Origin: Bacteroidota bacterium
Lineage (GTDB): Bacteria; Bacteroidota; Bacteroidia; Chitinophagales; Chitinophagaceae
Direction: 5' to 3'
NCBI GenBank assembly: GCA_018267585.1
Contig: JAFDYE010000780.1
Location: 1 to 42,011 of the forward strand
DNA length: 42,011 bases
Shown here: positions 1-36,729 of the stretch, piece after piece
Layout: each line of letters begins with the position of its first letter
Position numbering within the stretch: position 1 is the first letter of the stretch
The notes under the pieces: generated by a model
Seen by the model: only the letters and a program-made list of their open reading frames with translations
What the model was told of the DNA's origin: nothing
Databases searched by the model: none
Position numbers and translations under genes: made by a program

Positions 1-3000
1 ATGTCGCCGGTCATCGTGTAAAGGAAACAGATATCGGTATATCTGTCCTGCCGCCAGATCTGCCGGACGATGCCTTCCATTGTAGCATGGATCGATGCGG
101 GAGGAGTGAACTGATCATTTACGGCGAATTCGACAAAAACGAGGTCGGGTTTAAAAGCCAGTACCTGATGGCGCAGCCTAAAATTGGCCAGGTCGGAAGC
201 CGTGCCGCCAACTCCGGCATTGATGGCGGAGATATTGGAGCCGGGATAATATTTTTTCAGCCAGGCCAGCGATTGTTCGCGATAGCCCCCTCGTGCATTC
301 GTGATGCTGCCACCGAGGTAGGCGATGGTAACAGGGCGGCCGCTCTTCAACTTACCGAAAAAATTGGGTAATCCTTGGCGGGGCCGGCATTCGCGTGCTG
401 TGGAAAGCGTGTCCTGGATCAGGCCCATTTCGCTAAACGGGATCTCTTTGAAATCGGGCAACCGGGTATAGAGCGGAGCATTTTTTTTAAGGGCGAAATT
501 CCGGGCGCCAGTATCCACAAAACCTGGATCTTCCTTTGTGACCCAATTATTGTCCCGGACGGGTCCCCATTCTTTTTTTCCGTTGTTCACCAGTCCGACA
601 TTGACCAGCACATTGTTCTCTATGTCGTTGTGTTGTGGATCCTCCGGGTGATGATCGAAATAGGAGGCCAGGCCGGGATAGGCTGTCGAATAAGGAGGCA
701 GCCGGTAATTGACCTGTCTGAGGCGGAGATCGAATAGCCCGCCTGGCTGCAGGTTCTTCTTTTGCCAATTGGCCAGCCGGTTGTCCAGGTGAAAGCCCAT
801 TTTCGAATCGATAAGGACATTGTTATGGATATGGTTGAAGCTTCCTCCTCCGACCATGAAGGTCCTGTCGCCGGCCTTGTAAAAGACATTCCCATAGACG
901 TCTGTTCCGCAGGCTCCGTCGTCAAAATACACGGCCATGGTGGTTCCGAAATGGCCAATATCGTGAAAGTAATTGTAGCGGATCGTATTGCCGAATTCGG
1001 ACGGGTCCCGGCCGATATAGACGGCTCCCTGGTCATCGACAAAATTACAGGCTTCGCTGATCTCATTGTATTCGACCAGGTGGTTGTTCCCGTGAATATA
1101 GATCGCGGTAGCCGGGCAGGCGGTGAACAGGCAGTGCTGGATCTTATTGCCGACACCGTCGATATTGACCGGTGCTTTATAGGAGTAATCGATCCGTCCG
1201 CAATTGGTGAATTGGCAGTTGTAGACATAGTTGCCGGCAGGATCCAGGGTTTTACGGTCGCCTCCGCCCAGGCTGACGCCGCCGCAACCCAGGTTCTCCA
1301 GGTTGCAGTTGATGATGCCGTTGTCTTTTCCGCCTTCGCGGTTGAACGTCGTATTCTCATATAGCAGTTCGTGCAGGCTGCCCAGATGATCCGGTAATTT
1401 TTCATCCGGGCATACGCGTTGGAAGGGATCGGGCAGCCGGTAGGCCGATGCGGGCTGACTGCCTTTGCCGATGCAAACGCCTACTACGCCGAAGTCCCGG
1501 ATGGCACAATCCTCTATCCTGTCGGAGACGGTATTCTCCATATAAACGCCTATCCCGCGGCCGACTTCCAGGTCGATATGAGAAAAGGTGACGTGGCTGG
1601 CGCCTTTCAGGCAGATCAGCGCCGCGTCTGCAACGGAGACCAGGATGGTGTCGGTGGGTTTCAGTGCCTGCCGGGGATAAAAATACAGCTTGCCTTTCTC
1701 CTCGTCGATATAATACTCGCCAGGTTGGCTGATCTCTTCCAGCATGTTGAAAAAATAGTATTGATTCCATTCTTTTCCGCCGGTGATGCCGAAGTAATGT
1801 GCGTCCTGAAAGCTGACGACGCCTGTTGCCGGATTGATCTTCTTTACCCGTAATTGGTCGGTAGCCCAGGCCTTGCTGAAGTTGCCGGCGGCAATAATAT
1901 GCTTTGCGTGCCTCCAGGACGCGAGCCTGGATCTATCGACCCGGATCTTTCCGGGGTGCGGGGCGGGGTCGCCGGCGGTTGACGCCTGTCCGTTGTCCAC
2001 TATATCCGCGGTATCTAGGAGAAGCTGCTTTTTATCCGGATAACGGGCCAGCTGATAGGGTTGCCCGTTGATAAACAGCTCCATGGCAGCGTTGACGTAA
2101 GGACGGCGAAAGCCGGTGGGTTGGTGGACGCCGTAGTTGCGGATGCCCAGCGCCCGCAGATCGATCTCCCGGATATGCGTAACGGCTTCTTTGGCGAGTA
2201 TGCGCTGTGCGGCCGCCTCGTCCAATGGACGGACCTGGTCCGTGCGGATGGATCTGCCTCCGGTGAGAACAACCTTTTCCCCCGGGTAAGCGGAATAGAC
2301 GACCGGGGCGTCCGCTTCGCCGGAGTCCCGTGGGGTCAGGTCAAATCCGTCCGGCAGTTGATATAGCCCCGCCCGCAGGTAGACGGTGACTCCGCCGGGA
2401 GGTAAGAAGCCATTACCGGCGCTCTTCAGCCTGCGGATAGCTGCTCGCGCATCTTCCAGCGTGGCGAAGGGTTCGGCTTCCGATCCCTTATTGGCCGAAG
2501 ATCCATCGGGCGCTACATAGAAGAAGGCTGGCCCGCCCGCGAAAACAGCCAGCGGGTGATGGTAGGCGGATTGAGAGGACCGGTGAGACGGGGGCCGGTG
2601 AACCGTCGGCGGGAAGGGGATACGGAAAGGGCCTTTCAAGCGGATATCTTCGGAAGATGCGCCGGCCATTACGATAAAGGTGCCTGGCTCGACCGTCAAT
2701 TTCATCTCCTTATTCCAGATGGCCAGCTGGCTCCGGTGGATGACAAAAGACAGCTGTCTGGACTCCCCTGCTTGGAGATGCACCCGTTGGAAGCCGGCGA
2801 GGTTCTTTTCGTAGGTGGTGACATCCGTCACTTCTTCATGGGTATAGAGCTGGACTACTTCGTCGCCCTCCCGTCCCCCGCTGTTCTTGATGGTAAGACG
2901 GACGGATATATCATTTTCCGGAGACGTGCTGCCGGGGGTGATCTGCAGATCGCTGTAGTCGAAATGGGTATAGCTCAGGCCATATCCGAAAGGATAGAGT

Positions 3001-5048
3001 TTGCCTTTTAGCCGGGCATGTTCTCCTTCGTCTGTCTGAGCCGAGGGTTTGGACGGGAAGTTCATGGGCAGCTGGCCTACAGATCGTGGTATGGTTACCG
3101 TTAGTTTGCCGCCGGGATTGTAGTCGCCGAAAAGGACGTCGGCGATGGCCGTCCCGCCATACATGCCGGGGTACCAGGCCTCGATGATTCCCGGGATGAA
3201 TTTGTCCACCCAGTTGGCGGTGACCGGCTGGCTATTGATATACACTACGACGACCGGCTTGCCCGTCGCATAAACTTTACGGATCAGGGGCAACTGAAAG
3301 CCGGGGAGGTCCAGGCTCGTGCGGGATTTATCTTCTCCGGCCGTTAGTGTCGATCCTCCCATGACCATTACTACCACATCGGACGCGCGGGCTGCCTCTA
3401 CGGCGGAATCCATCATGGACTCGTCTTGCGCGGAAGGGGGCTGGGGCAGTACTTCGCTCTCGGGCCAGTCAGCGTCGACCAGGTCGCAGCCTTTGGCGTA
3501 TCTGACGGAAATGGGTCCGCACGCGCTGTCGACGGTCCATAGTCTTATCTTCTCGCGGATGGCCTGGAGCACGGAGACGCCTTCCACGCCGCGGGGGCCA
3601 TAGTGCTGGCGGTTATAGGACGCGTCGTCGGCGTTGGGTCCGATGACGGCGATGGAGTGGATGTTCTTTTGCAGGGGTAACACCTGCCGGTCGTTCTTCA
3701 GCAGCACGATACATTCATGGGAGGCTTTCAATGCGATGGCTTTATGCCCGGGATCATGGAGCGTTCTTTCGGAGGCGGCGGCATCCGACACATAGGGATG
3801 ATCGAATTCGCCGGTAAGGAATTTCACGCGCAGGACGTCCCTTACTCTGTCGTCCAAAGTAGCCATCGGGATCCTGCCATTCCGTACGGCCTTTCGCAAA
3901 GGAAGGATCATGGTGCCGGGATCGGAGAAATTGGTCCGCACGTTGAGGCCGGCGTTGACGGTTTGCGTTACCGCGTCTTCCCGGTCTTTGGCAGTATGGT
4001 GTTTGCCGAACAAATATTCGAGCGCATCGCTGTCCGACACGACATAGCCTTTGAAACCAAAATCCTTCCGCAAACGCCGGGTCAGCCAATAACTGCTGGC
4101 GATGACCGGCACGCCGTCGTAGTCGTTATAAGAGGCCATGATCCCCAGTATCCCGGCTTCCCGGATCGCGGACTCGAAGGGGGGCAGCAGGAGTGTTTCG
4201 ACTTCGCGGGGAGGCATTTGCGGGTCGGTCCTTGCCATTCCTTCCCGGGCGCCAAAGTTAGCGCTGTACATTGCGAAATGTTTGGCCGTGGAGGCTACCT
4301 GGTGATTTTTCTGTAACCCTTTGGCCAGGGCGACCCCCAATCGTCCGACGAGGTAAGGGTCTTCTCCATAGCTTTCTTCCAGTCTTCCCCACCGCTGATC
4401 GCGGGCTACATCGAGCACGGGAGCATAAATATTGGTGTACCCCATGGCGCGGGCCTCTGCACCAGTGATCCGGCCGATATTTTCGGCCAGCTGTTGATCC
4501 CAGGTGGCGCCTATAGCCAGAGGAGTGGGAAAGGAGGTGGCGCCATAGGCCTCGACTCCCCTGATGCCCTCATTCGTGAAGTCGGCGGGAATGCCCAGGC
4601 GTGTATCCTCGATAAAAAACTCCTGTGTGAGGTTCATCGCCCGGACGTGCTCTGTCACTTCTTTGACGATGGCGAGGTTTGGGACCGGTTGATCCCAGCC
4701 CGTGAAACCGTTGAGGTGTTCGTCGATGTTGGCGATGCCATCCTTCCAGATCGCATTTTTCCAGGCAGGCGTAGGCAGCGAGTCTTTCAGCACCCGGAGA
4801 TATCCATATAGGGTGGCCATCTGGCAGGTCTTTTCCTCCACCGTCATCTGCTTCAGGAGGTTTTCGATGCGGTTGTCGACGGGTTGCTGCGGATCTTCAT
4901 AAATATCCTTGCGGCCGTTCTTATTGAGGTCGATCCAGCCTTCATGATAGATACCTGTCATTCGCGGGGTAAAGGACTGGGCGTGGGCCGGCAGGTTGGC
5001 GACGAGGAATGAGGACGCCAGAACGAGCTGAAAAAAAAGTTTTTCCAT
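1..5048 (-). CDS. Giant secreted GH3 glycosidase / beta-helix / SGNH esterase fusion (C-terminus beyond left edge)
   Basis: The frame from the ATG at 5048 was read codon by codon to the window edge and has no stop, giving at least 1,682 residues. Residues 1-23 form a signal peptide ending AHA. Residues about 35-800 are a full GH3 enzyme: an N-terminal barrel with KH at 256-257 and the nucleophile motif GYVVSDSDAL (Asp339), an alpha/beta sandwich domain, and an Fn3-like domain near 715-785. A proline/serine/histidine-rich linker (about 808-838) leads to a right-handed beta-helix module (about 842-1540) that begins FYVAPDG and PFATLEDAR, as in GH141-like and related beta-helix glycosidases. From about 1550 an SGNH hydrolase follows, with GGSIT (Ser1581), NAGVGG (Gly1612) and VND (Asn1644). 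Its His block lies outside the window. It is the last gene of a sigma-FecR-SusC-SusD operon, 37 bases after susD. Domain identities are secure; specificity, and membership of GH141, are inferred. Confidence 0.93.
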   Translation of the reverse strand, partial: MEKLFFQLVLASSFLVANLPAHAQSFTPRMTGIYHEGWIDLNKNGRKDIYEDPQQPVDNRIENLLKQMTVEEKTCQMATLYGYLRVLKDSLPTPAWKNAIWKDGIANIDEHLNGFTGWDQPVPNLAIVKEVTEHVRAMNLTQEFFIEDTRLGIPADFTNEGIRGVEAYGATSFPTPLAIGATWDQQLAENIGRITGAEARAMGYTNIYAPVLDVARDQRWGRLEESYGEDPYLVGRLGVALAKGLQKNHQVASTAKHFAMYSANFGAREGMARTDPQMPPREVETLLLPPFESAIREAGILGIMASYNDYDGVPVIASSYWLTRRLRKDFGFKGYVVSDSDALEYLFGKHHTAKDREDAVTQTVNAGLNVRTNFSDPGTMILPLRKAVRNGRIPMATLDDRVRDVLRVKFLTGEFDHPYVSDAAASERTLHDPGHKAIALKASHECIVLLKNDRQVLPLQKNIHSIAVIGPNADDASYNRQHYGPRGVEGVSVLQAIREKIRLWTVDSACGPISVRYAKGCDLVDADWPESEVLPQPPSAQDESMMDSAVEAARASDVVVMVMGGSTLTAGEDKSRTSLDLPGFQLPLIRKVYATGKPVVVVYINSQPVTANWVDKFIPGIIEAWYPGMYGGTAIADVLFGDYNPGGKLTVTIPRSVGQLPMNFPSKPSAQTDEGEHARLKGKLYPFGYGLSYTHFDYSDLQITPGSTSPENDISVRLTIKNSGGREGDEVVQLYTHEEVTDVTTYEKNLAGFQRVHLQAGESRQLSFVIHRSQLAIWNKEMKLTVEPGTFIVMAGASSEDIRLKGPFRIPFPPTVHRPPSHRSSQSAYHHPLAVFAGGPAFFYVAPDGSSANKGSEAEPFATLEDARAAIRRLKSAGNGFLPPGGVTVYLRAGLYQLPDGFDLTPRDSGEADAPVVYSAYPGEKVVLTGGRSIRTDQVRPLDEAAAQRILAKEAVTHIREIDLRALGIRNYGVHQPTGFRRPYVNAAMELFINGQPYQLARYPDKKQLLLDTADIVDNGQASTAGDPAPHPGKIRVDRSRLASWRHAKHIIAAGNFSKAWATDQLRVKKINPATGVVSFQDAHYFGITGGKEWNQYYFFNMLEEISQPGEYYIDEEKGKLYFYPRQALKPTDTILVSVADAALICLKGASHVTFSHIDLEVGRGIGVYMENTVSDRIEDCAIRDFGVVGVCIGKGSQPASAYRLPDPFQRVCPDEKLPDHLGSLHELLYENTTFNREGGKDNGIINCNLENLGCGGVSLGGGDRKTLDPAGNYVYNCQFTNCGRIDYSYKAPVNIDGVGNKIQHCLFTACPATAIYIHGNNHLVEYNEISEACNFVDDQGAVYIGRDPSEFGNTIRYNYFHDIGHFGTTMAVYFDDGACGTDVYGNVFYKAGDRTFMVGGGSFNHIHNNVLIDSKMGFHLDNRLANWQKKNLQPGGLFDLRLRQVNYRLPPYSTAYPGLASYFDHHPEDPQHNDIENNVLVNVGLVNNGKKEWGPVRDNNWVTKEDPGFVDTGARNFALKKNAPLYTRLPDFKEIPFSEMGLIQDTLSTARECRPRQGLPNFFGKLKSGRPVTIAYLGGSITNARGGYREQSLAWLKKYYPGSNISAINAGVGGTASDLANFRLRHQVLAFKPDLVFVEFAVNDQFTPPASIHATMEGIVRQIWRQDRYTDICFLYTMTGD

Positions 5049-5085: not shown

Positions 5086-6681
5086 TTAGTAGCCCGGATT
5101 TTGATCTACCTTATTTGTGGACCGATCGATCTCCTGTTGAGGGAAGGGTCTCAATACATGATAGGGTTGAATGGCGGATGCGTCCGGGTTGTATTGCTTC
5201 ACCCTGGTGACGAGCGTACCGGTGCGTTTGAGGTCGAACCAGCGCTGCTGTTCGCCATAAAGCTCGCGGGCGCGCTCATCCAGAATAAAATCAATATCCA
5301 GGGCTGGGGGGGTGGAGGCCGTCAGGTCATAGCCCGGCATGGACCGTTTTGCGCGCAGGATATTGATCGAATTGACGGCGTCGGACTGCTTGTTCTCCAT
5401 CATCTGGGCTTCGGCCAGGTTCAGATAAACTTCGCCGATGCGGAAGACCAGGAAATTTTTGGATCCGGCAGTAATGGCCGGCGACGAGCGCAGCGGATCA
5501 AGGAATTTCACAGGACAAAAGAATTTGGTCCGGTCGACCGTGTTGGTGATGTCGAGGGAATCCCAGATCTGGTAGATGTGTTTGGCCTTTTCCGCCGGTG
5601 GAACATAGGCGGACGTCACCAGGATGGCGGTATCGCCCAATTTCATGCCGCCTGGCGCGGTTGCTGCATTGTTACAATAAAAGACCTGCTTAAGACCCTG
5701 CTGGTAGCGTTTGTCTGCCTGTCTGTCGAAAAGGGAGTTGCCGTAAGGCGTAAACTTAAACCGGTTGTACGGCCTTCCGTTGGCCACATCGCGTAACATA
5801 CCGGGCATGACGTCGTACACGGGGACGAAATACAGGTGGCCTGAATTTCCGTCGCCGTCCAGCAATACGCTGGGTGTGAATTGAACAGACCAGATGACTT
5901 CGCTGTTCCGTTGGTTGTTGATATCGAAAATACTGCTGTAGGAGTCCAGCAGGGAAAAGTTGTAGTCCCTGATCAGGCTTTTGGACAGGGTTTCGACTTC
6001 TGCCCAGTTGTGGAGGACGAGGTCCACCCGGCTCAGGAGTGCTTTTGCGGCGGGTTGAGTGGCGCGGCCATAGTCCGTCTGGGTTATGGGCAGGTTGGCG
6101 ATGGCGTACTGCAGGTCGGGGAGAATGACGACATTATAAATGGAATCGACGCTGCTGCGGATAGTAACCGTATTGACCGTTCTTATTTCGTGGATGGTCA
6201 GGGGCAGGTCGCCAAAGGTCTGCACCAGTGTAAAATAATACAGCGCCCGTAAGAACCGGGCTTCCGCCACCCGGGTATGTTTGAGGGTAGAGTCCAGCCC
6301 CGGGATCGCGTCGGCCCTGTCAACTACGGCATTACAGGTGTTGATGCCGGAATAATAGCTGGCGTAAAGAGATGTGGTATAGGTCGCGCCGGGGGTCATT
6401 CCGGAGGTATATTCATTCCAGTATTTGAAGCTGCCGTCACGGCCTTCCGTATAAGTATCCACGCCGTATTCGGTAAGGGAGAAACCCAATTCCTGCCCAT
6501 AAAAGGTACGCAGTGGGGCGTACGCCGCATTCACGCCTCCAGTAAGGCCGGCGGCGTCCTTGTAATAACTGTCGGCGGTGATGCCGCTGACTATGGTTTC
6601 GTCCAGTTGTCTGGAACAGGAGATGGCTGTCGTCAGCAGGACCAGCAGCAGGCAGGTGATATATGCGTTAATCTTTTTCAT
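5086..6681 (-). CDS. SusD/RagB-family glycan-binding outer-membrane lipoprotein
   Basis: This 531-residue protein starts with a lipoprotein signal peptide (lipobox around Cys22, TTAISC), so it should be anchored in the outer membrane and face outward. It has the SusD layout: an alpha-helical TPR-like region with RVAEARFLRALYYF in the N-terminal third, and the C-terminal SusD signature with EVYLNLAEAQ, ILDERARELYGE and RWFDLKRTG. The protein ends with a typical short tail (NPGY). SusD proteins cap the SusC barrel and deliver oligosaccharide to it. The gene lies 10 bases downstream of the susC partner and 37 bases upstream of the giant glycosidase, so all three should be co-transcribed. The ATG at 6681 is the only start that keeps the whole signal peptide. 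Confidence 0.95.
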   Translation of the reverse strand: MKKINAYITCLLLVLLTTAISCSRQLDETIVSGITADSYYKDAAGLTGGVNAAYAPLRTFYGQELGFSLTEYGVDTYTEGRDGSFKYWNEYTSGMTPGATYTTSLYASYYSGINTCNAVVDRADAIPGLDSTLKHTRVAEARFLRALYYFTLVQTFGDLPLTIHEIRTVNTVTIRSSVDSIYNVVILPDLQYAIANLPITQTDYGRATQPAAKALLSRVDLVLHNWAEVETLSKSLIRDYNFSLLDSYSSIFDINNQRNSEVIWSVQFTPSVLLDGDGNSGHLYFVPVYDVMPGMLRDVANGRPYNRFKFTPYGNSLFDRQADKRYQQGLKQVFYCNNAATAPGGMKLGDTAILVTSAYVPPAEKAKHIYQIWDSLDITNTVDRTKFFCPVKFLDPLRSSPAITAGSKNFLVFRIGEVYLNLAEAQMMENKQSDAVNSINILRAKRSMPGYDLTASTPPALDIDFILDERARELYGEQQRWFDLKRTGTLVTRVKQYNPDASAIQPYHVLRPFPQQEIDRSTNKVDQNPGY

Positions 6682-6691
6682 GTTGTATTAT

Positions 6692-9600
6692 TTAGAAGGC
6701 TGCATTGATGCCCATGGATATGATATCGTTGGCGATGGCGTTGCTCAGGTTGAGGTAACCTGTCAGTTTGCCACCCTGCGGGGCTATCTCGGGGTTGATC
6801 CTTTTCAGCCCGGGTATGGGATGATTCATCCGGGAGAACAGGTTTTGCCCCGTCATATACACTCTCAGGCTGGAGAAGGCCTTACCGAGCGCTGAGCCGG
6901 GAAGCGTATATCCCAGGGTCAGGTTCTGCAGCCTGACGTAGGAGCCGTCATAATAATAAAGTGAGCCCAGGTTGGTGACCCCTCCGGTAGAGCCTCTCGG
7001 CCCGGCATTGCTGCCGTTGGTTGGCGTCCAATAAGGGATGTTCAGGTTGTTGTAAGCATTGGTGAAGAAACTGACGGTCTTACTGGCGTTGCTGTAGATC
7101 ATCTGTCCCTGGCGGAAGAATATGAAAAAGGAAAGATCGAAGCCTTTATAGGAAAAGCGGTTGGTAAGGCCGCCGGTGATCCGGGGTCTCGGATTGCCTA
7201 AGATCATTCTGTCATTGGCGTCTGTCTTGCCGTTCTTGTTGAGGTCGGCGAATTTTATGTCCCCGGGTACGGCGCCATAGCCGGCCGCTGCGGTCGCTTC
7301 CGAAGTCTGCCAGATGCCGATCTTCCTGTAGTCGTAGAAGACATTGATCGGCTGTCCTACGAACCATCCGTTGCCGATATCGCTGGTCTGGCTGCTGGTC
7401 AGCGAGACGATGGCTTCCTTGTCCGAATAAAAATTCGTCTCGATGTTCCACTGGAATCCGCTGCGGGATGAAATGGGAATAGCGGAAAGGGTCACTTCAT
7501 ATCCTTTATTACGGGTCTTGCCGATATTCTGCAGTACGCTGGAAAAGCCGGTATAGGAAGGGATGGCCCTTGACAACAACAGATCGTAGGTATGTTGGTA
7601 GTATAGTTCGACTGTGCCGGAGAGGCGGTTTTTGAGAATGGCAAAATCGATGCCCAGGTTGGTCGATGCGGTGGATTCCCATTTTAGATCCGAATTGGCG
7701 AGAGCGCTGGGGGCGTATCCATAGGCCGCAGTTGTGGAATACCAATTGTACAGGGTCTGGGACAAGGAGCCCTGTGTCGCATAGGGACTGATGCCGGTAT
7801 TACCGGTGACGCCGTAACTGGCCCGTACCTTGAAATCGGAGAACAGGTTTTGTTTCTTCATAAAGTCTTCTTCTACGACGCGCCAGGCGAGTGCGGCCGA
7901 TGGGAAATACCCCCATTTTTTTCCGGGAGCGAGTCTGGACGATCCGTCCGCGCGCATGGTCAGGGTTGCCAGATACTTCCCTTTGTAACCATAGTTCAGT
8001 CGTCCCATATAAGACAGGATGGACCAGGATGAATACCTGCTGCCGTATCCGGTGGCCGTGCCGCTGCCCAGGTTGTAAAACAACTGTGAATCGTAAGGGA
8101 CTCCGGTGACCGACAGGTTCGACGAAGTGGTGGCGTCGTGCTGCAGACTGTACAGGCCGGTCAGATCCAGGCTGTGGCGGCCGAAGGTCCTGTTGTATCT
8201 CAAAATGTTCTCTACCGTATAATTCACATCATATGAGCTGTTCTGGCCTGCGGTAGCCAGACCATTGTTATTGCTCAGGCTGCTGTTGTATGAGCCGTTG
8301 TTGAGGTTATTGTTGTCCATACCCAGGTTGAGCCGGTATTTAAGACCTTTCCAAATTTCGTACTCGCCATAGAGGGTTCCGAAAAAGCGGTAGGTCTTCC
8401 GCAGGTCGGTAGTTGCGCTGCGGATGTCGGCCAGCGGGTTGTGATTTTTACCGTCCGGCATCGGGTTGACGGTGCCGTCGGCATTATACGGTTTTGCCCA
8501 GGGAAACATTTGGAGTGCGGTAGCGAGGTAGGCATCGACGCTGATGATGCCGTAATCCTGCTGGCCATAGGTGTAAAAGGAATTGGTCCCGACGGTTATA
8601 TGGTCGTTGACCTTCTGGGATAAGTTGATGCGAAGGGAATACCTCGAAAAATCGCCTTTTTGTACGATGCCTTTCTCGTTGTAATATCCGGCGGAGATGG
8701 AATATTTTGTATTATCCGTGCCGCCTCTTACGGCTACGGAGTGGTTGTGTGCATACCCCTGTCTGAAAATATAGTCCTGGTAATTGGTGGAGGGATTGTT
8801 CAGGATCGAAAGGCTATCGGCGGGGGCAAGGGCATGAAAAGAGCTTTCGAAGGCGCCGTATTGCCTGGCGTTCATCATATCGATGGTACCGATGCGGTTG
8901 GTCACGCCATAATAGCCGTCGTAAGACAGTACCGGTTTGCCTGATCTGCCCGTCTTGGTCGTCACCAGGATCACGCCGTTGGCGCCGCGAGAGCCGTAGA
9001 TGGCGGTAGCGGAGGCGTCTTTCAGCACCTGTATGCTTTCGATATCGCCCGGATTGAGGCCGTTGATATCTCCGGCCATCGGAATGCCATCTACGACATA
9101 TAAAGGATCGTTGCCGGCGGTTATCGACCGGTTGCCCCTGATGCGGATAGTGGTGCCATCCCCGGGCCTGCCCGAATTATTGACGATATCCATTCCGGCC
9201 ACGCGTCCCTGCAGGGCCTGGGCGGCGCTGACTACGGGGCTCTCGGCGATGACCTTGCTATTCACGGAAACTACCGAGCCGGTGACGTCCGTCTTTCGCT
9301 GGGAGCCATACCCTACGATGATGAAATCGTCCATCGACTTTTTGGCGTTCTTCAGGTGTATGACCAGGTCGTGCCGGCTGCCGACGGGGGTTTCTTCGGG
9401 AATATAACCTACATAACTGGCGACGAGGACGGCGTCGTCATCGACGTTCCGCAAATGGAAATTCCCTTTCGGATCGGTGATGGTTCCCCGGGTAACGCCC
9501 TTTATGGTGACGCTGACGCCCGCAAGCGGCTGGTTGTCTTCCGTCAAGACCCGGCCGGAGAGAGAATGCGCGGTATCGGGTGCCGCAGGTAGCGGGGATG

Positions 9601-9982
9601 GGGTCGTGGGGGTGGGAGCCGTTGTCCGCGTAATGACGACAATGTGGTATCGGAGGTGGTAGATCAGTCCCTGGTTCTTTAGGCAGAGATCGAGTACCTG
9701 CGTAAGGGGAACGTCTTTTACTTCGAGGGTAACCGGACGGGTGGTGCGGACTATCTTTTCGTCGTAGACAAAAGCATAGCCCGTCTGTTGTTCTATGTTG
9801 CTGAACACCTGCAGGAGGGTGAGATTCCTGCCGGAGATAGAGACCGTTTGCGAGAATACCTTTGCATTTACATGGAGAGCGGCAAACAGGATCAGAGCGG
9901 AGGTCAATTTCATAACCAAAAGGGTTTTGGCTGGCCATCTCTTCCGTAACCGGAAGGATTTGCCATGTGCAAGCAATACCAT
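6692..9982 (-). CDS. SusC/RagA TonB-dependent receptor with STN domain
   Basis: This is a 1,096-residue outer-membrane importer. A basic N-terminal stretch (RLRKRW...KTLLVMKL) precedes the signal peptide core, an arrangement common in Chitinophagaceae SusC proteins, so the ATG at 9982 is kept over the internal ATG at 9913. After the signal come an STN domain (about 45-110), a CarboxypepD_reg beta-sandwich (about 140-210, GRVLTEDNQPLAGVSV), a TonB box near FIIVGYGSQ and a plug with LYVVDGIPM, IESIQVLKDASATAIYG and SRGANGVILV. The 22-strand barrel follows, to a C-terminus ending in Phe. The STN domain is the part that normally contacts FecR in the periplasm, matching the fecR gene upstream. Together with SusD it forms the uptake complex for the glycan processed by the fusion enzyme. 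Confidence 0.95.
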   Translation of the reverse strand: MVLLAHGKSFRLRKRWPAKTLLVMKLTSALILFAALHVNAKVFSQTVSISGRNLTLLQVFSNIEQQTGYAFVYDEKIVRTTRPVTLEVKDVPLTQVLDLCLKNQGLIYHLRYHIVVITRTTAPTPTTPSPLPAAPDTAHSLSGRVLTEDNQPLAGVSVTIKGVTRGTITDPKGNFHLRNVDDDAVLVASYVGYIPEETPVGSRHDLVIHLKNAKKSMDDFIIVGYGSQRKTDVTGSVVSVNSKVIAESPVVSAAQALQGRVAGMDIVNNSGRPGDGTTIRIRGNRSITAGNDPLYVVDGIPMAGDINGLNPGDIESIQVLKDASATAIYGSRGANGVILVTTKTGRSGKPVLSYDGYYGVTNRIGTIDMMNARQYGAFESSFHALAPADSLSILNNPSTNYQDYIFRQGYAHNHSVAVRGGTDNTKYSISAGYYNEKGIVQKGDFSRYSLRINLSQKVNDHITVGTNSFYTYGQQDYGIISVDAYLATALQMFPWAKPYNADGTVNPMPDGKNHNPLADIRSATTDLRKTYRFFGTLYGEYEIWKGLKYRLNLGMDNNNLNNGSYNSSLSNNNGLATAGQNSSYDVNYTVENILRYNRTFGRHSLDLTGLYSLQHDATTSSNLSVTGVPYDSQLFYNLGSGTATGYGSRYSSWSILSYMGRLNYGYKGKYLATLTMRADGSSRLAPGKKWGYFPSAALAWRVVEEDFMKKQNLFSDFKVRASYGVTGNTGISPYATQGSLSQTLYNWYSTTAAYGYAPSALANSDLKWESTASTNLGIDFAILKNRLSGTVELYYQHTYDLLLSRAIPSYTGFSSVLQNIGKTRNKGYEVTLSAIPISSRSGFQWNIETNFYSDKEAIVSLTSSQTSDIGNGWFVGQPINVFYDYRKIGIWQTSEATAAAGYGAVPGDIKFADLNKNGKTDANDRMILGNPRPRITGGLTNRFSYKGFDLSFFIFFRQGQMIYSNASKTVSFFTNAYNNLNIPYWTPTNGSNAGPRGSTGGVTNLGSLYYYDGSYVRLQNLTLGYTLPGSALGKAFSSLRVYMTGQNLFSRMNHPIPGLKRINPEIAPQGGKLTGYLNLSNAIANDIISMGINAAF

Positions 9983-10154: not shown

Positions 10155-11366
10155 TTATTTTGCGGCTGTTACGACAATGGTATTCCCATCGATAATGAAA
10201 TGCACTTTTCCGGCCTCCTGCAGTACTTCCAGTAATTCAGCCACATTCTCTTTCCGCGGGAAAATGCCGGTAAAGGCGACGTCCGGCAGCTGCCCCTGGT
10301 AGACAACATTCACGTCATACCATCGGGCGATCTGGCGCATCATAGGTTGTATTCCGCTGTTGGTAAACCGGAATTTTCCTTCCTTCCAGGCAAGGGTTTC
10401 GCTGAGAGAAGGTGAGGATAACGTGAATACGGGAGTCTGGCCGGAGAGGGAGGCCTGTTGTCCTGGTTTCAGGATACGGTGTGCTGCGCCGCTGCTCACT
10501 CTTATGCCGCCGCTTACCAGGGTGGTCTTTACCGTCTCTTCGTCGGAATAAGCCATCAGGTCGAATTCGGTGCCCAGCACCTGGACCGTCATATTGCGGG
10601 CTTCAACGAAGAAGGGAAGTCTGGCATTGGCCGCCACTTCAAAATAGGCTTCGCCAGTGATCTGCACCCTGCGGTCGGTTCCTGCGAACCTATTCGGATA
10701 ATGGATGGTAGAGGCGGAATTGAGCCATACCTTGGTGCCATCCGGCAACGTCAACTGGTATTGTCCTCCGCGCGGTGTTTCCATGGTATTGTAGACGACA
10801 GGGCCGGCGCCGTCGCTGGCAGCGTTGCCCGCAGGCCGATAGGAGAGCTGTCCATTGGCTAATTTGATCACGCTGACATTGCCCTGGGTAGCCAATGTCC
10901 CGTTGCTCATGGAGTCGAGTACCATCCGGGTGCCGTCACCCAGGGTAAGGATCGCCTTATTGCCTGGAATGGTGTGAGGTACGACCGTGGTCCGTACGAG
11001 CTGATGCCCGGGTTGTCGTCCCATGAAAAGCCACGCGCCGATCGCCAATAAGGCTACTGCCGCCGCTGCGACAGCGGGTTTCCACCAACGTATCGGTCTC
11101 ACCGGTTGCAGGGAAGGGCCGGAAGGCAAGTTGGCCATCATTTCTTCCCAGGTTGTCTGTTCCATTTCCCGGGTCCACAACGGAGTATCGGAGCGCTCAC
11201 CGGGGTCTTCTTCCCGGATCCGCCGGATATGCCGGACCATGTCTTCGCCGACGATGGCATCGAAGTCACCGGAATCCAGCGCCTGGAAGAATTCCGGCAG
11301 GCTTTCCGGCGGGAGCCGGTCGGATTTATACAATTCCAACAGGCAAGAAAACCGTTCGTACGTCAT
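10155..11366 (-). CDS. FecR-family anti-sigma factor
   Basis: This is a 403-residue inner-membrane anti-sigma regulator. The start was placed at the ATG at 11366 because AGGAGAG (11375-11381) sits 8 bases upstream and the protein then begins MTYERFSCLLELY. Further upstream in-frame starts would only add a low-complexity leader. The cytoplasmic N-terminal part (about 1-90) would bind the sigma factor. A single transmembrane helix lies near 96-114 (VAAAAVALLAIGAWLF). The periplasmic FecR domain follows, with TPRGGQYQLTLPDGTKVWLN, TGEAYFEV and VQVLGTEFDLMAY. The C-terminus is a DUF4974 domain (AELLEVLQEAGKVHF) that should touch the receptor STN domain. It lies 66 bases downstream of the sigma gene and precedes the susC it should regulate. 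Confidence 0.93.
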   Translation of the reverse strand: MTYERFSCLLELYKSDRLPPESLPEFFQALDSGDFDAIVGEDMVRHIRRIREEDPGERSDTPLWTREMEQTTWEEMMANLPSGPSLQPVRPIRWWKPAVAAAAVALLAIGAWLFMGRQPGHQLVRTTVVPHTIPGNKAILTLGDGTRMVLDSMSNGTLATQGNVSVIKLANGQLSYRPAGNAASDGAGPVVYNTMETPRGGQYQLTLPDGTKVWLNSASTIHYPNRFAGTDRRVQITGEAYFEVAANARLPFFVEARNMTVQVLGTEFDLMAYSDEETVKTTLVSGGIRVSSGAAHRILKPGQQASLSGQTPVFTLSSPSLSETLAWKEGKFRFTNSGIQPMMRQIARWYDVNVVYQGQLPDVAFTGIFPRKENVAELLEVLQEAGKVHFIIDGNTIVVTAAK

Positions 11367-11432
11367 AAATAGGGCTCTCCTATAGTAAAGACGACTGTGG
11401 GACGGGTGTGCCGTAATGGCGTTCAAAATAAA

Positions 11433-11987
11433 TCAGAAATGATCGAGCAGTTGGTTGCGGATGGCCCGTAAGGCGAGTTCCATGTGTTTTTTGACGGTGG
11501 CTCTCGAAAGCTGCATTTTGCCGGCGATCTCTTCGTAAGTAAGGTGTTGTTCCCGGGCAAGTGTATATACCTGCCGCTGTTGGGGGGGCAGGTTGGCTAC
11601 GGCACTCCTTAGCAGCCTGGTATATTCGCGGTCGAGTAAAAGATGGTCGCTGTCATTGACGAAGGAGGAGGGTGTGCGCTCCAGTTGAAGGCGTGACCTG
11701 CTCTCAAGGGCAGTTTTCTTCAGCTGGTCCAGCAGCGTGTTGCGAACCAGGATAAAAAGGTAGTTTTCGAAGTGGTCGATTGCCGGCAGCAGGGCTCTTT
11801 TTTCCCATAATTTGATAAAGATCACCTGGATAATATCCTTTGCCTTCTCTCTTTCTTTCAGGTAAGTGAAGGCCGTATGGAATATCACGGAACTATAACG
11901 ACGGTAAAGCATATTAAAGGCCTGTTGATCTCCTGCCGCAATTTTTTCCAGTAAATGCCGGTCGTTATGACTTTCCGTATGTCGCAA
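11433..11987 (-). CDS. ECF RNA polymerase sigma factor (cassette 1)
   Basis: This 184-residue sigma-70 factor of the ECF type has region 2 at about 22-90 (AFNMLYRRYSSVIFHTA, KDIIQVIFIKLWEKR) and region 4 at about 120-180 (LPPQQRQVYTLAR, LTYEEIAGKMQLSRATVKKH). It lacks other domains, as usual for FecR-controlled factors. The start appears to be TTG at 11987: an in-frame stop lies just upstream, and no in-frame ATG occurs before the conserved LLEKIAAGD segment. It is the first gene of the minus-strand operon and diverges from a second sigma gene at 12181. It probably directs transcription of the fecR-susC-susD-glycosidase operon once released by FecR. Confidence 0.92.
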   Translation of the reverse strand: MRHTESHNDRHLLEKIAAGDQQAFNMLYRRYSSVIFHTAFTYLKEREKAKDIIQVIFIKLWEKRALLPAIDHFENYLFILVRNTLLDQLKKTALESRSRLQLERTPSSFVNDSDHLLLDREYTRLLRSAVANLPPQQRQVYTLAREQHLTYEEIAGKMQLSRATVKKHMELALRAIRNQLLDHF

Positions 11988-31991: not shown

Positions 31992-34943
31992 ATGAAAAAA
32001 GTTGTATTCCTGTTCCTGGTGGTGGTCGCTGCGGCCGCCGCCAGGGCACAGCATTCTGCGCGGTATCCGATGAGGGTTGTTGGCGGAGATGTGTTGAATA
32101 TCAGCTGGCGGTCTGATACTGCGGTCGCGGGCGGCGTTAGCGTGGTGGTCTATGCGTTTGATACGTTGTATTCGTGGCATGTTTATGAATATGCCCTTCG
32201 GTTCACAGGCGACACGGCATGGACGGGCAGCTTTGCTTTGCCCCCGGCGGCGGGGTTTCTCGCTTATAAGTTTGTGGCGGGGAGCGTTTGCGACAATAAT
32301 AATGACACGGGGTATTTCACGATGGTCTATCGTCGTGATGGCCGCTATATGCCGGGGGCGGAAGCGGGGTATGGACTATTGCGCAGTCCCCGGTATGGTT
32401 ATGGTGTGCCGGGTTATTTCAGGTCGTTCACCATCAGTGATACGGCGACCTATATGTGGCTCAGCAATGAGATATTGCGTGAACACGGCGCGCGGTTTCC
32501 GCTGGTGCTGCCTTATTTGCGGGCCGCGACGAACTTTGAGCCGCCGAAGGGTGCGCGTGAGTCGACGCGCGCCGTCCGGTATCTGCTGGGGTTGGGGAGC
32601 GAGGAGGCGATGGTGAATGCTTTTTTGATCTGCAGGGAGTTGCTGCGGGACAGTCTTCGGGCGGACTCTATTCATCGTGTTTCGCTTGCGGCCTGGCCTA
32701 CGGGCGCCTTGGCGCGGATGGATGCCTATCGGCGGGCTCTTCGTGCGAAGACGATGGAGACGCGGCTTTCTTTGGGGCGTGCATTTCTCGACAGCTTCCC
32801 TTATCGGGAATCGGAGGAGAGGATCAACCGGGTCCTGGATATTCAGTACGAGCTGGTATACCGCAATGTTTTTGCGATAGCGATCGCACAGAAGAAGACG
32901 GGAGTTGTATTGGAGTTGCGTTCGACGATACCGATGCTGAATCTGCCCGAGGTCTATTACAAGGCCGTCGAGATACCGTATGATGACTGGAGGACGATGG
33001 ATGCGGCGACGGCCTATCCTTTGTCGGACGCGCTATACCAGCGGATGCTTTATTTCTGTGGCCACCAGCCTGCCGGCCTGTGGTATTACTCTCCCTCTGA
33101 ATGGAAGGGCTATTGTGAGAAGGCCTTTGGCAGCTATTTCCGGCTGCACGCCCGCATCCTGATGGAACTGGGCCGGGATAAGGAGGCGCTTGCGCTGGCG
33201 CGGCGGGCGCAGGCGCACTATGGTGGGGGCTCTTCGGACCTCGATCAGACGGAGGCGGTGCTGCTGGAGAGGACGAAAGATCATAAGGCGCTGGATTCGC
33301 TCTTGCGGGTAGCGGTGCGTCTCAATCAGATGACGCCCGTGATGATCGACATGTTGCGGCGGCGTTATGTGATGAGTCATGGGCGAGACGCCGGCTTTGA
33401 CGCGTGGATGGAGTCGCTGAAGGATGCGCGGACGAAGCAGCTGGTGCGTGAAGAGGTCCTTCGGAGCCGCCAGAATTTTGCGGCGCCTGATTTTGCTCTG
33501 GTTGATGGTGCGGGGCGAAGGGTGTCTTTGAAGAGCCTGCGCGGAAAGGTAGTGGTGCTGGATTTCTGGGCGACCTGGTGTGCGCCGTGCAAGGCTGCGA
33601 TGGCGGGGATGAATATGGCTGTCTCGCGGTATGCGCGGGATACGGGGGTCGTATTTCTTTTTATCGATACGCAGGAGCGGGATCCGGATTACAAGGCGAA
33701 GGGGAAGGCTTTTTTGAAGGACAAGGGTTATCCTTTTACCGTGTTGTTCGACGAAGGGCCCGGCATGGAGGATGCGTATAAGGCGTATGCGGGGGCGCTG
33801 CACAGTTCGGGTATCCCGATGAAGGCGGTGATCGACGGGAATGGGGTGTTGCGGTTTCCGAGCATTGGGTATAAGGGCAGTCCCAGCGGGCTGGCGGATG
33901 AGATAGAGATGATGGTCGAGCTTTCGCGGTCGCGTGCGGATAGTGTAGTGTTTGATGGTTTGAATGACTCGATCCATATCGGGGCGACGGTGGGCTATCC
34001 GGTGGGCGGAGCCAGGACGGCGGTGGTGATCCTTTCGGGGACGGGTAAGCAGGACAGGGATGGGACGATGGGTGGACATAAAGTTTTTGCGTTGCTGGCA
34101 GACAGTCTTGTCCGGAGGGGGTTTGTGGTGTTGCGGAGTGATGATCGCGGCGTGGGTAAAAGTACGGGGGACTATAGCGCTGCTACGACTGCCGATTTTG
34201 CCTCAGATGCGCTGGCGGCGGTCAATTATTTATGTAGTCGCAGGGACCTGGGCATCCGGCGGATCGGGTTGCTGGGGCATAGCGAGGGCGGGATGGCTGC
34301 GGCGATAGCGGCGGGGCGGGATGAAAGGATAGGGTTTGTCGTTAGTCTCAGCTCGCCGGGTGTGACGGGATTGGAGGCGTTGCTGGCGCAGAACCGGAAT
34401 ATGGTGGCCCGGTCGCCTATTCCTGCGGTCAACAAGATGCGCTATGACTCGATCAATAATTTATTATTCCATTTGGTGTATGACCATGCCGGGGATCCCG
34501 GTATGGATGCGTTGATCCGTAGGGCCTATGCGCGGTGGAAGATTTGGGACGACTCGGTTGTTGCGGCTAACCGGCTGGTCGATGGAGGTCATTTCTTCTT
34601 TCCGCTGGAGAGCTATATCCGCCAGGCTACGGGTCGCTGGTACCAGGGTTTCCTGCGGTATGATCCTTCGCGGGTCCTGCCGCTGGTGCATTGTCCGGTG
34701 CTTGCGCTTAATGGTGACAGGGATATCATCTCCGATGGGGTCGTCAACCTGAAGGGTATCGCGGAGGGCCTGGCGAAAGGGGGCAACCGCCGGGTGACTA
34801 CCTGGCTGGTTCCCGGGGTCAATCACCTCTACCAGCATTGTGTCAGCTGTCAGACGGATGAGTATGCAAGGCTGCCGGAGACTATGGCTCCTGAGGTTGT
34901 CGGTAGGATCGGGGATTGGCTTCAGAACCTTCCGGCCTTGTAG
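31992..34943 (+). CDS. Periplasmic TlpA-thioredoxin / alpha-beta hydrolase fusion
   Basis: This 983-residue exported protein has a signal peptide of about 19 residues (AAAAARAQ). Residues about 25-110 look like a beta-sandwich, and about 110-490 is an uncharacterised mostly helical region with TPR-like charge pattern. A TlpA/AhpC-like thioredoxin domain occupies about 495-640 with the redox motif WCAPC (Cys530, Cys533) preceded by VVLDFWAT. It is followed at about 665-983 by an alpha/beta hydrolase with GHSEGG (Ser764), NGDRD (acid probably Asp911) and PGVNHLYQ (His945). All catalytic residues of both domains are present, so both should be active. The gene is 3 bases after susD, and its 3' end overlaps the convergent pirin by 22 bases. 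The substrate is not readable; a thiol- or disulfide-containing ester or peptide ligand is a guess. Confidence 0.9.
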   Translation: MKKVVFLFLVVVAAAAARAQHSARYPMRVVGGDVLNISWRSDTAVAGGVSVVVYAFDTLYSWHVYEYALRFTGDTAWTGSFALPPAAGFLAYKFVAGSVCDNNNDTGYFTMVYRRDGRYMPGAEAGYGLLRSPRYGYGVPGYFRSFTISDTATYMWLSNEILREHGARFPLVLPYLRAATNFEPPKGARESTRAVRYLLGLGSEEAMVNAFLICRELLRDSLRADSIHRVSLAAWPTGALARMDAYRRALRAKTMETRLSLGRAFLDSFPYRESEERINRVLDIQYELVYRNVFAIAIAQKKTGVVLELRSTIPMLNLPEVYYKAVEIPYDDWRTMDAATAYPLSDALYQRMLYFCGHQPAGLWYYSPSEWKGYCEKAFGSYFRLHARILMELGRDKEALALARRAQAHYGGGSSDLDQTEAVLLERTKDHKALDSLLRVAVRLNQMTPVMIDMLRRRYVMSHGRDAGFDAWMESLKDARTKQLVREEVLRSRQNFAAPDFALVDGAGRRVSLKSLRGKVVVLDFWATWCAPCKAAMAGMNMAVSRYARDTGVVFLFIDTQERDPDYKAKGKAFLKDKGYPFTVLFDEGPGMEDAYKAYAGALHSSGIPMKAVIDGNGVLRFPSIGYKGSPSGLADEIEMMVELSRSRADSVVFDGLNDSIHIGATVGYPVGGARTAVVILSGTGKQDRDGTMGGHKVFALLADSLVRRGFVVLRSDDRGVGKSTGDYSAATTADFASDALAAVNYLCSRRDLGIRRIGLLGHSEGGMAAAIAAGRDERIGFVVSLSSPGVTGLEALLAQNRNMVARSPIPAVNKMRYDSINNLLFHLVYDHAGDPGMDALIRRAYARWKIWDDSVVAANRLVDGGHFFFPLESYIRQATGRWYQGFLRYDPSRVLPLVHCPVLALNGDRDIISDGVVNLKGIAEGLAKGGNRRVTTWLVPGVNHLYQHCVSCQTDEYARLPETMAPEVVGRIGDWLQNLPAL

Positions 34944-35761
34944 TCGGCGATCGCTTCTTCTATCTCCTGTTGGGTATTCATTACAAAATTATCTTTTGCT
35001 GCGACGGGTTCGTCGATCGGTTGGGCGGACAGGAAGAGGAGCTGGGTATCTTCTGTCGCTGTGACGATCAGCTCGTCGTTGTCCTTTTCAAAGACGATAA
35101 GATGGTGTTCGTTGACGGTCTCCGAGTTGACGCAGATGGAGCCTTTGATGATGTACAGGAGGGTCCAGTAGCCGGGTATGGCTGTCAGCTGGACGCGGCG
35201 GGCTTTGCGAATATCGCCAGTGATCATGATGACGGGGGTGAAGCTTTTCAGCGGGCCGGTGGCGTCTTCGTAGTGGCCGCTGGCGAGGCGCAGGTGGACG
35301 CCGTCCTGTTGGAGCACCGGGGGCTGCAGGTCTTTTGGGGCGAACTGGTAGAAGGGTTCGTCCAGTCGGTGCGCGGCGGGGGCGTTGATCCAGAGCTGGA
35401 TCAGCTCTTGCACGCCGCCTTTTTCGAGGAGCCGGGGGGTGGGGCCTTCGCTGTGGAGGATGCCTTTTCCGGCGAACATCCACTGTACGTCGCCGGCGCC
35501 GATGGTGTGTTCGTTGCCGGCGTTGTCGAGGTGGAAGCCTTCGCCCTGCAGCTGGATGGTGACGGGTGAGAAGCCGCGGTGGGGGTGCATGGGCAGGCGG
35601 ATCGCGGAGCCGGGTTTTATGGTGTTGGGCGGCATGTGGTGGAGGACGATGAATGGGTTTGCAAAGCGGAACTCTGCGTGGGGCAGGGGTTGGAGGACGA
35701 TCTGGCCGGGAGCGATCTCTTTCTCCCGGCCTTTTAGTATATGGGTTATTTTCTTTTGCAT
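34922..35761 (-). CDS. Pirin-family bicupin protein (second of pair)
   Basis: This 279-residue cytoplasmic protein has the pirin double-cupin fold. The N-terminal cupin holds the metal-site motif MHPHRGF and later GDVQWMFAGKGILHSE, as in iron-binding pirins; the C-terminal cupin starts near SFTPVIMITGDI. The closing NFVMNTQQEIEEAIADYKAG is the conserved pirin tail. Pirins act as iron-dependent redox sensors or quercetin-2,3-dioxygenase-like enzymes; the role here is not determined. It lies 51 bases after a related pirin gene, so the two are probably co-transcribed. Its 3' end overlaps that of the thioredoxin-hydrolase fusion. Confidence 0.92.
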   Translation of the reverse strand: MQKKITHILKGREKEIAPGQIVLQPLPHAEFRFANPFIVLHHMPPNTIKPGSAIRLPMHPHRGFSPVTIQLQGEGFHLDNAGNEHTIGAGDVQWMFAGKGILHSEGPTPRLLEKGGVQELIQLWINAPAAHRLDEPFYQFAPKDLQPPVLQQDGVHLRLASGHYEDATGPLKSFTPVIMITGDIRKARRVQLTAIPGYWTLLYIIKGSICVNSETVNEHHLIVFEKDNDELIVTATEDTQLLFLSAQPIDEPVAAKDNFVMNTQQEIEEAIADYKAGRF

Positions 35762-35812
35762 GGCATTATGTTGAGTGCACGGTATTGTGTTGAGGGGATG
35801 TGGGGCCCCCGG

Positions 35813-36700
35813 CTATTCCAGTTCGCCAAATTTTCCGGCCTGTACTTCGCGGATGGAATCGATGATCTCCTGTGCTGTGTTCATCACGAAGGGGCCGTAG
35901 GCGACGATGGGTTCGTCGATGGGCTCGCCGCTGAGCAGGAGGATGGTGGCGCCGTCGGTGGTGCGGATGTCGATGTCTTCGCCTTCGTTGGCGAACAGTA
36001 CAAAGCTGTGTTCGGGGGCGGTCTGGCCGTTGATGGCTGCGGTGCCGTTGACGAGCAGCAGGGCCGTGTTGTGGTTTTGGGGGATGCTGGTGGTGAGTTT
36101 TGCTCCTTTATTTAGTCTCAGGTCGAAGAGGTTGACCGGGGTGAAGGTTTGGGCCGGGCCCTGTGTGCCGTTGAAGGTACCCGCGATGACGTTGACCTGT
36201 CCCTGGCCGTCAGGGAGGATGTGCCTGCCCATTTTGTCGGCGGTGAGGGACTGATAGTTTGGCGGGGTAAGTTTGTGGCGTTTGGGGAGGTTGACCCAAA
36301 GCTGGACCATTTCGAAGGGGCCGCCTTTTTTCGAGAACTCTTCTTCATGAAATTCTTTGTGGAGGATGCCGGCGCCGGCGGTCATCCACTGGACGTCGCC
36401 GGGGTTGATGGTGCCGCTGTTGCCGGCGCTGTCGGCGTGGGCGACGGAGCCTTTATAGGCTACGGTTATCGTTTCGAAGCCTTTATGGGGGTGGACGCCG
36501 ACGCCGCGGACCCGGGCCGAGGGGCCGAAGTCGATCTCGGCGTTGAAGTCGAGCATCAGGAAGGGGCTGATGCGCTCCCGGGGTATCTCGCTGCCCGGTA
36601 GTCCTCCTCCACCCGGTATATAGTTATAGACCCTGAATCCGTCGCCGACCATTCCGGGGGCGGCGGGCTGTGATATGATCTGTTCGATGATCCTTTTCAA
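35813..36700 (-). CDS. Pirin-family bicupin protein (first of pair)
   Basis: This 295-residue pirin is started at TTG 36700, because AAGGAG (36709-36714) stands 8 bases upstream and an extended TTG start at 36724 would leave it inside the coding region. Motifs are VGVHPHKGFETITV, GDVQWMTAGAGILHKEFHEE and FVMNTAQEIIDSIREVQAG, covering both cupins and the conserved tail. The His-x-His metal site is intact. It is clearly homologous to the following pirin but well diverged, so the duplication is old. A -7 box (36722-36729) gives it a short leader, divergent from rlmN. Confidence 0.92.
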   Translation of the reverse strand: MKRIIEQIISQPAAPGMVGDGFRVYNYIPGGGGLPGSEIPRERISPFLMLDFNAEIDFGPSARVRGVGVHPHKGFETITVAYKGSVAHADSAGNSGTINPGDVQWMTAGAGILHKEFHEEEFSKKGGPFEMVQLWVNLPKRHKLTPPNYQSLTADKMGRHILPDGQGQVNVIAGTFNGTQGPAQTFTPVNLFDLRLNKGAKLTTSIPQNHNTALLLVNGTAAINGQTAPEHSFVLFANEGEDIDIRTTDGATILLLSGEPIDEPIVAYGPFVMNTAQEIIDSIREVQAGKFGELE

Positions 36701-36708
36701 AGTTGTAT

Positions 36709-36714
36709 CTCCTT
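36709..36714 (-). promoter_or_regulatory. Strong Shine-Dalgarno that sets a TTG start for pirin
   Basis: AAGGAG on the minus strand lies 8 bases before TTG at 36700. No ATG is found in frame nearby, so this site decides the start of the first pirin. Confidence 0.75.
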
Positions 36715-36721
36715 GTGGATG

Positions 36722-36729
36722 CAAAGTTA
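36722..36729 (-). promoter_or_regulatory. Bacteroidota -7 promoter box for the pirin pair
   Basis: The minus-strand sequence TAACTTTG fits the Bacteroidota -7 consensus TAnnTTTG exactly. It lies 21 bases from the TTG start and just before the Shine-Dalgarno. A clear -33 element was not found. Confidence 0.6.

Follow-up and report, generated by a model that had tools for sequence, protein, structure and literature searches.

Organization of the locus

The window analyzed here, 42,011 nucleotides long, is the whole of contig C755 from its first base, in a Bacteroidota draft genome of 7.0 Mb, 929 contigs, and 3.07% contamination. At its left end, on the minus strand, lies a long gene for a secreted protein with three hydrolase modules, directly behind genes of the sigma/FecR/SusC/SusD type. 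The frame continues into a second contig of the same assembly, C593 (coordinates prefixed L003). The features are as follows.

3..5048, minus strand: fused ORF, residues 1 to 1682 of 2,015; the rest lies in C593 (L003), with the stop at L003:13572
4977..5048, minus strand: signal peptide, residues 1 to 24, with an A-x-A-type ending (by inspection)
2619..4976, minus strand: GH3 module including C-terminal and Fn3-like domains, residues 25 to 810; putative D339 and E572
2526..2618, minus strand: linker 1, residues 811 to 841; GC 0.71
414..2525, minus strand: GH141-like right-handed beta-helix, residues 842 to 1545; D1339 and D1376
3..413, minus strand: N-terminal part of the SGNH (CE17-like) module, residues 1546 to 1682; S1581 and N1644
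L003:13575-14571: remainder of SGNH (D1744, H1747), repeat linker, and C-terminal beta-sandwich (residues 1849 to 2015)
5086..6681, minus strand: SusD-like protein (by inspection), 37 bases upstream of the fused ORF
6692..9982, minus strand: SusC-like TonB-dependent transporter (by inspection)
10155..11426, minus strand: FecR-type anti-sigma factor (PF04773, PF16344)
11433..11987, minus strand: ECF sigma factor (PF08281, PF04542)

In the protein, the signal peptide is followed by GH3, the beta-helix, SGNH (residues 1546 to 1770), a repeat linker, and the C-terminal beta-sandwich. The hydrophobic N terminus ends in AHA-Q, with no lipobox cysteine seen on inspection, and reads as a signal peptide. 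The linker after GH3 has 31 residues, and there is almost none before SGNH; the one that joins SGNH to the C-terminal domain is about 75 residues long and rich in P, A, S, and Q. A 39-base tandem repeat (L003:14161-14280, 3.1 copies) encodes part of the latter. The GC content of both linkers is near 70%, versus 54 to 57% in the modules. The original prediction of one chain with one signal peptide and three different hydrolase modules was borne out, and the linker positions it gave (2530-2640 and 380-500) agree with the measured boundaries at 2526-2618 and ∼414.

A Pfam scan covering 20 other ORFs of the window found no glycoside hydrolase family; the locus therefore looks like a minimal polysaccharide utilization locus (PUL) with one degradative gene. 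As the gene stands directly behind the sigma, FecR, SusC, and SusD genes, the fused protein is probably a periplasmic enzyme of this small PUL. In tblastn searches, the SusD-like protein was 26 to 27% identical to parts of loci L055 and L059, and the SusC-like protein was 28 to 36% identical to L055, L058, L059, L062, and L067. With SusC identities this low, orthology of the loci is not established, and the weak match of the SusC/SusD pair to L055, L058, and L059 was not used. The sigma/FecR region had no near-identical match among phage records. About 210 bases downstream of the fused gene, in C593, two short genes resemble a toxin-antitoxin pair by inspection. Elsewhere in the window, a 983-residue ORF (31992-34943) combining thioredoxin/AhpC-TSA and alpha/beta hydrolase domains lies directly behind a second SusC/SusD pair, and two neighboring pirin genes occupy 34922-36724.

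Integrity of the reading frame

The frame begins with ATG at 5048 and runs through 1,682 codons to the window edge without a stop, as had been predicted. Among window bases 1 to 600, the only other match found in a search of the same assembly was to C593, whose last 52 bases are identical to the first 52 of the window. Extension leftward through this overlap, the check originally proposed, added 333 residues, for a total of 2,015 amino acids. The join between the contigs is our inference from the 52-base overlap together with homology: the SGNH region aligns to its relatives across the join without interruption, with 60% identity to L055 over 400 residues.

Because long spurious frames occur in this GC-rich window, including an antisense frame of 768 amino acids, length is no proof of a coding frame; the proof is the domain matches along the whole of it. 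Codon bias was examined in 99 windows of 40 codons each, and the fused frame ranked top of the six frames in 83 of these. Among the remaining 16, another forward frame was equal or higher in 6, which fall at residues 801 to 840 (linker 1) and within 1721 to 1860 (the SGNH end and linker 2). GC3 was 0.69 in GH3, 0.67 in the beta-helix, 0.60 in SGNH, and 0.56 in the C-terminal part.

Catalytic modules

The residues expected for catalysis were found in all three modules, as judged from sequence, those of GH3 and SGNH being putative assignments from family motifs. The GH3 module matched Pfam Glyco_hydro_3 (PF00933; residues 132 to 408, 207.6 bits) and Glyco_hydro_3_C (PF01915; residues 447 to 693, 190.4 bits), both over the curated cutoff, followed by an Fn3-like domain (residues 730 to 799, 80.1 bits). 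From GH3 motifs, D339 is the putative nucleophile and E572 the putative acid/base; D339 aligned with the SD motif of PDB entry 7zb3. The two best PDB matches of the module carry the names beta-xylosidase and xylosidase. Every NCBIfam equivalog model of a GH3 activity scored below cutoff, the best being beta-xylosidase at 511.5 against 1,350 bits, with BglX at 464.7 against 666. The similarity evidence thus leans to beta-xylosidase, with all activity models below cutoff.

The original prediction had called the second module GH141-like. The fold and two catalytic aspartates support this call, and the Pfam model of the GH141_M insertion domain does not, scoring 21.0 of the required 27 bits. Pfam Beta_helix matched residues 1244 to 1411 with 45.8 bits (cutoff, 25.9). 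An AlphaFold model of the module had a pLDDT of 94, and the nearest PDB fold to this predicted model was 5MQP (BT1002), with an E value of 4.8e-22, followed by XylC at 4.6e-14. By sequence profile, the best PDB match was 9rx2, a beta-helix protein of unstated function, ahead of 5MQP. D1339 and D1376 aligned with positions 528 and 569 of the BT1002 chain, as counted by hand on the printed profile alignment. These are spaced by 41 residues, as are Asp523 and Asp564 of the catalytic pair published for BT1002; the spacing of 37 between D1339 and D1376 is that of the corresponding Asp540 and Asp577 in Xyn141E (PMC5593877). GH141 comprises an alpha-L-fucosidase and a xylanase (PMC5593877) and also endo-fucanases (PMC12786026), and with activities this diverse, family membership does not fix the activity. 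Both D1339 and D1376 are invariant in 36 aligned sequences, the fused protein included.

The third module matched Pfam Lipase_GDSL_2 at residues 1578 to 1667 (40.1 bits; cutoff, 32.9). The Ser, Gly, Asn, and Asp-x-x-His elements are present at S1581, G1614, N1644, D1744, and H1747, residues that we presume to represent the SGNH blocks. Among solved structures, the module's own sequence was nearest to 6HFZ (5.2e-14), over the first ∼118 SGNH residues only. For the L055 orthologue, a model (pLDDT 75, 6 sequences) matched 6HFZ/6HH9 over both domains with a best E value of 1.3e-21, the next other PDB entry being at 6.4e-8 and xylan esterases (Axe2) coming second. In this orthologue model, SGNH and clamp are arranged as in 6HFZ (TM 0.67 to 0.76 over both domains). 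Pfam CE2_N remained below its curated cutoff at the C-terminal domain (18.9 of 27.9 bits). Structure 6HFZ is RiCE17, an SGNH esterase that bears a CBM35 and releases the 2-O-acetyl groups of mannans (PMC9487903, PMC13276840). Of the earlier SGNH esterase assignment, the SGNH part stands, but the esterase does not appear generic: together with the C-terminal domain, which lies outside the window, the model suggests that it resembles the CE17 acetylmannan esterase RiCE17. According to PMC13276840, CE17 had been described only from Bacillota; if the assignment holds, CE17-like esterases would be brought to Bacteroidota.

Stand-alone relatives and origin by fusion

For every module, relatives encode a complete free-standing protein to which it aligns; on homology, this identifies the gene as three entire secreted enzymes fused in frame. 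That relatives encode the modules separately had been foreseen. The GH3 module was 58% identical to an 810-residue GH3 of another genome (L164) and 54% identical to an own-genome paralogue (L167), with alignments ending 1 to 2 residues from their C termini. The beta-helix match starts just past the leader of L058 (722 residues) and reaches its last residue; L058 and L056 (733 residues) end at fused residues 1545 and 1547, where SGNH starts. The SGNH match in L058 likewise starts just past a leader, at fused residue 1550. This boundary was taken from L058, since the alignment to L043 ran into the L043 leader by chance similarity. As the module ends coincide with the ends of the stand-alone proteins, the fusion would have kept one signal peptide and lost two.

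Beta-helix relatives were taken as the best 80 loci listed from a scan of species genomes, of which more exist. Best-segment identities were 63% for L055, 61% for L056 and L057, 54% for L058 and L059, 45% for L060, 42% for L061, and at most 40% for the remainder of these 80. In the five nearest loci (L055 to L059), the gene immediately behind the beta-helix gene encodes GH3 or GH3-SGNH, and this GH3 belongs to a different subfamily, 29% identical to the fused one. The row in Dysgonomonas capnocytophagoides (L058) reads SusC, SusD (both assigned by inspection), beta-helix, GH3 (593 residues), SGNH (424), GH29, and GH97, with the beta-helix, GH3, and SGNH genes adjacent but separate. The genes beside stand-alone relatives of the fused GH3 vary (GH20, GH28, GH36, GH88-like, GH2, UxaC, UxuA), so that no single substrate is indicated.

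At E 1e-15, 7 of 33 genomes of the genus, the own one included, had any match. One of them, Chitinophagales bacterium isolate bin_264 (L055, whose contig is also G983:C79 of the genus), carries, behind SusC/SusD-like genes, a GH31-beta-helix fusion (∼1,440 residues) and a GH3-SGNH fusion (∼1,040 residues) side by side at L055:4826-12286. This locus is like the fused gene in its beta-helix (64%), its SGNH and C-terminal region (60%), and its adjoining SusC/SusD-like genes; it differs in that the parts are distributed over two other fusions and that the GH3 is of a different subfamily. The small GH3 of L055 lacks a close counterpart in the own genome (best match, 30%). In L183, the beta-helix lies behind its own leader, with the 3' side cut by a contig end; in L184 it also follows its own leader, is 37% identical, and is closer to an own-genome paralogue on C25. 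A further genus-mate beta-helix (L181:9173-11372) is interrupted, with its two pieces in different frames and the larger one 67% identical, which reflects either a draft error or gene decay. Another locus of the genus, L182 (8572-17152), encodes a 1,584-residue ORF with two C-terminal SGNH stretches after ∼950 residues without a Pfam match, and a 1,315-residue ORF in which a sodium:solute symporter domain precedes ∼900 such residues. At L047:8810-11185, an SGNH-CT protein of ∼790 residues has an N-terminal half that looks like GH43 on inspection.

Distribution of the architecture

The combination GH3-beta-helix-SGNH was sought in five overlapping genome samples (294, 396, 395, 395, and 33 of the genus), most genomes of which were without any match, and no second case was found, judged by frame length and, for fetched loci, by module search as well. 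The module search covered 90 loci (the best 80 beta-helix loci, 9 more, and L034), and among these L055 alone combined two module types in a single frame (GH3 plus SGNH). Several relatives (e.g., L037, L038, L135, and L183) are cut by contig ends, so an absent partner could be missed there. Long beta-helix ORFs (L066, 1,190 residues; L118, 2,090; several Paenibacillus loci, >1,200) contained no GH3 or SGNH in frame. Among 172 plasmid records with a match, none covered 80% of the query, the best reaching 50% through the GH3 part only. The own genome has 12 GH3 matches and 15 SGNH matches, with the fused protein counted in both sets, and no other matching frame is nearly as long, the longest having 1,044 (GH3) and 847 (SGNH) residues.

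In line with the original prediction, no described enzyme with the order GH3, GH141-like, SGNH was found among the open-licence PMC papers listed, those on multicatalytic or three-catalytic-domain enzymes included, nor was a fusion of GH141 with SGNH or of CE17 with GH3 in Bacteroidota. In two of the papers found, GH141 appears either together with CBM6 and a dockerin or in a tabulation of family numbers.

Proposed function and alternatives

Our preferred reading, to which we assign a probability of about 0.55, is that of a genuine three-enzyme fusion acting as a tri-catalytic PUL protein. It builds on the single frame, its modules, their conserved catalytic residues, the homology to intact stand-alone enzymes, and the locus context; periplasmic location, substrate, order of action, and any gain from linkage are what we infer. 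The exported, probably periplasmic protein would be the only carbohydrate-degrading enzyme recognized in the sigma/FecR/SusC/SusD locus. Oligosaccharides would be imported by SusC/SusD and deacetylated by the CE17-like SGNH module, for which the C-terminal beta-sandwich may clamp the sugar. With the acetyl groups gone, the GH141-like beta-helix would be able to cleave an internal or side-chain linkage, alpha-L-fucosyl most likely and beta-xylosyl less so, and GH3 would then remove the exposed nonreducing beta-linked sugar, xylose or glucose. The best guess for the substrate is an acetylated fucose- or xylose-containing glycan, proposed because of the fucosidases in the nearest loci and the leaning of GH3 to beta-xylosidase. 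Among the best 80 loci, a GH29 or GH95 match was present in 5 of the 7 nearest versus 7 of the 73 others, a count biased by the origin of the queries in L056, L057, and L058 and by differing flank lengths. The nearest loci also carry GH97, GH31, GH28, GH16, and esterase genes. The gene order in the five nearest loci points to a functional link between the parts. Against the preferred reading weigh the different GH3 subfamily in those loci, the below-cutoff GH3 activity models, the low SusC identities, the varied neighbors of stand-alone GH3 relatives, the lower GC3 of the SGNH and C-terminal parts, and the lack of a comparably long GH3 or SGNH frame elsewhere in the own genome.

The best-surviving rival, although unlikely, is that the fusion is real but functionally neutral, neighboring PUL genes having lost their stops and signal peptides while the modules work separately from one another and may have different glycans as targets. 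The end-to-end matches to stand-alone enzymes fit this explanation, as does the different fusion of similar parts in the genus mate L055, by which the combination is not fixed, and published multicatalytic enzymes are sometimes without intramolecular synergy (PMC8417218). The retention of the catalytic residues argues against neutrality, and different beta-helix and SGNH fusions within the same genus suggest that linking is tolerated or has been kept repeatedly.

Quite improbable is a xylan-specific version, with a GH3 beta-xylosidase, a xylanase-like GH141 beta-helix, and an acetyl-xylan esterase acting on acetylated glucuronoxylan. The names of the top GH3 structure matches and of the best, below-cutoff NCBIfam model are consistent with it, as are the aspartate spacing shared with the GH141 xylanase Xyn141E, the uronate genes adjoining some GH3 relatives, and an AXE1-type esterase gene in L056. 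However, fucosidases, GH97, GH31, GH28, and GH16 but no xylanase family were seen among those genes of the nearest beta-helix loci that were scanned, and the nearest match of the esterase is one acting on mannan, esterases acting on xylan coming second. Least probable is a chimeric contig, for which the fragmentation and contamination of the draft, the location of the second half of SGNH on a different contig linked solely through the 52-base overlap, and the lower GC3 of SGNH and the C-terminal part would speak, but both module boundaries lie within one contig, in frame, and at domain ends, GC3 is alike (0.67 to 0.69) in GH3, beta-helix, SusD, and SusC, and codon bias and the unbroken homology disfavor both a chimera and a frameshift.

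Returning to the tri-catalytic reading, a broader idea, which we offer tentatively as a possibility, is that a lineage of this genus compacts PULs into few polypeptides via repeated and varied fusions of adjacent enzyme genes, one tri-catalytic protein here being the whole degradative arm. The combinations behind it are GH3-GH141-like-CE17-like in this genome and GH31-GH141-like plus GH3-CE17-like in the genus mate; the lack of another fusion of such size in the own genome speaks against it. The close relatives with separate or differently fused parts offer a natural comparison for asking whether linkage of esterase and glycosidase aids glycan breakdown, a benefit left unsettled by the published two-module cases (PMC8417218), and the locus context makes the GH141-like group (54 to 67% identity) assayable.

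Comparison with known systems

The beta-helix module has its fold and both catalytic aspartates in common with the alpha-L-fucosidase BT1002 (5MQP), Xyn141E, and the Wf141 endo-fucanases, while identity to BT1002 is about 17% over the Foldseek alignment. Xyn141E carries CBM6 and a dockerin rather than GH3 or an esterase (PMC5593877). RiCE17 from Roseburia combines an SGNH domain with a CBM-like clamp domain, both matched by the L055 orthologue model, but identity is about 20%, and here the enzyme is fused and has the ∼75-residue linker between SGNH and C-terminal domain. Likened by description only, FjoAcXE of Flavobacterium johnsoniae is likewise an SGNH acetyl esterase that is encoded in a PUL and carries a CBM-like domain (PMC5863359); unlike the fused protein, it has that domain before SGNH and is not fused to glycosidases.

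Multicatalytic PUL enzymes as such are already known, and the three-catalyst variant was found undescribed in open-licence PMC papers. According to PMC8417218 and PMC7110780, two-module enzymes are established with BeCE15A-Rex8A and BoCE6-CE1, which, as here, hold several catalytic modules in one PUL protein. BeCE15A-Rex8A also shares the pairing of an esterase with a glycosidase; both have two catalytic modules of other families, whereas the present protein has three: GH3, GH141-like, and CE17-like.
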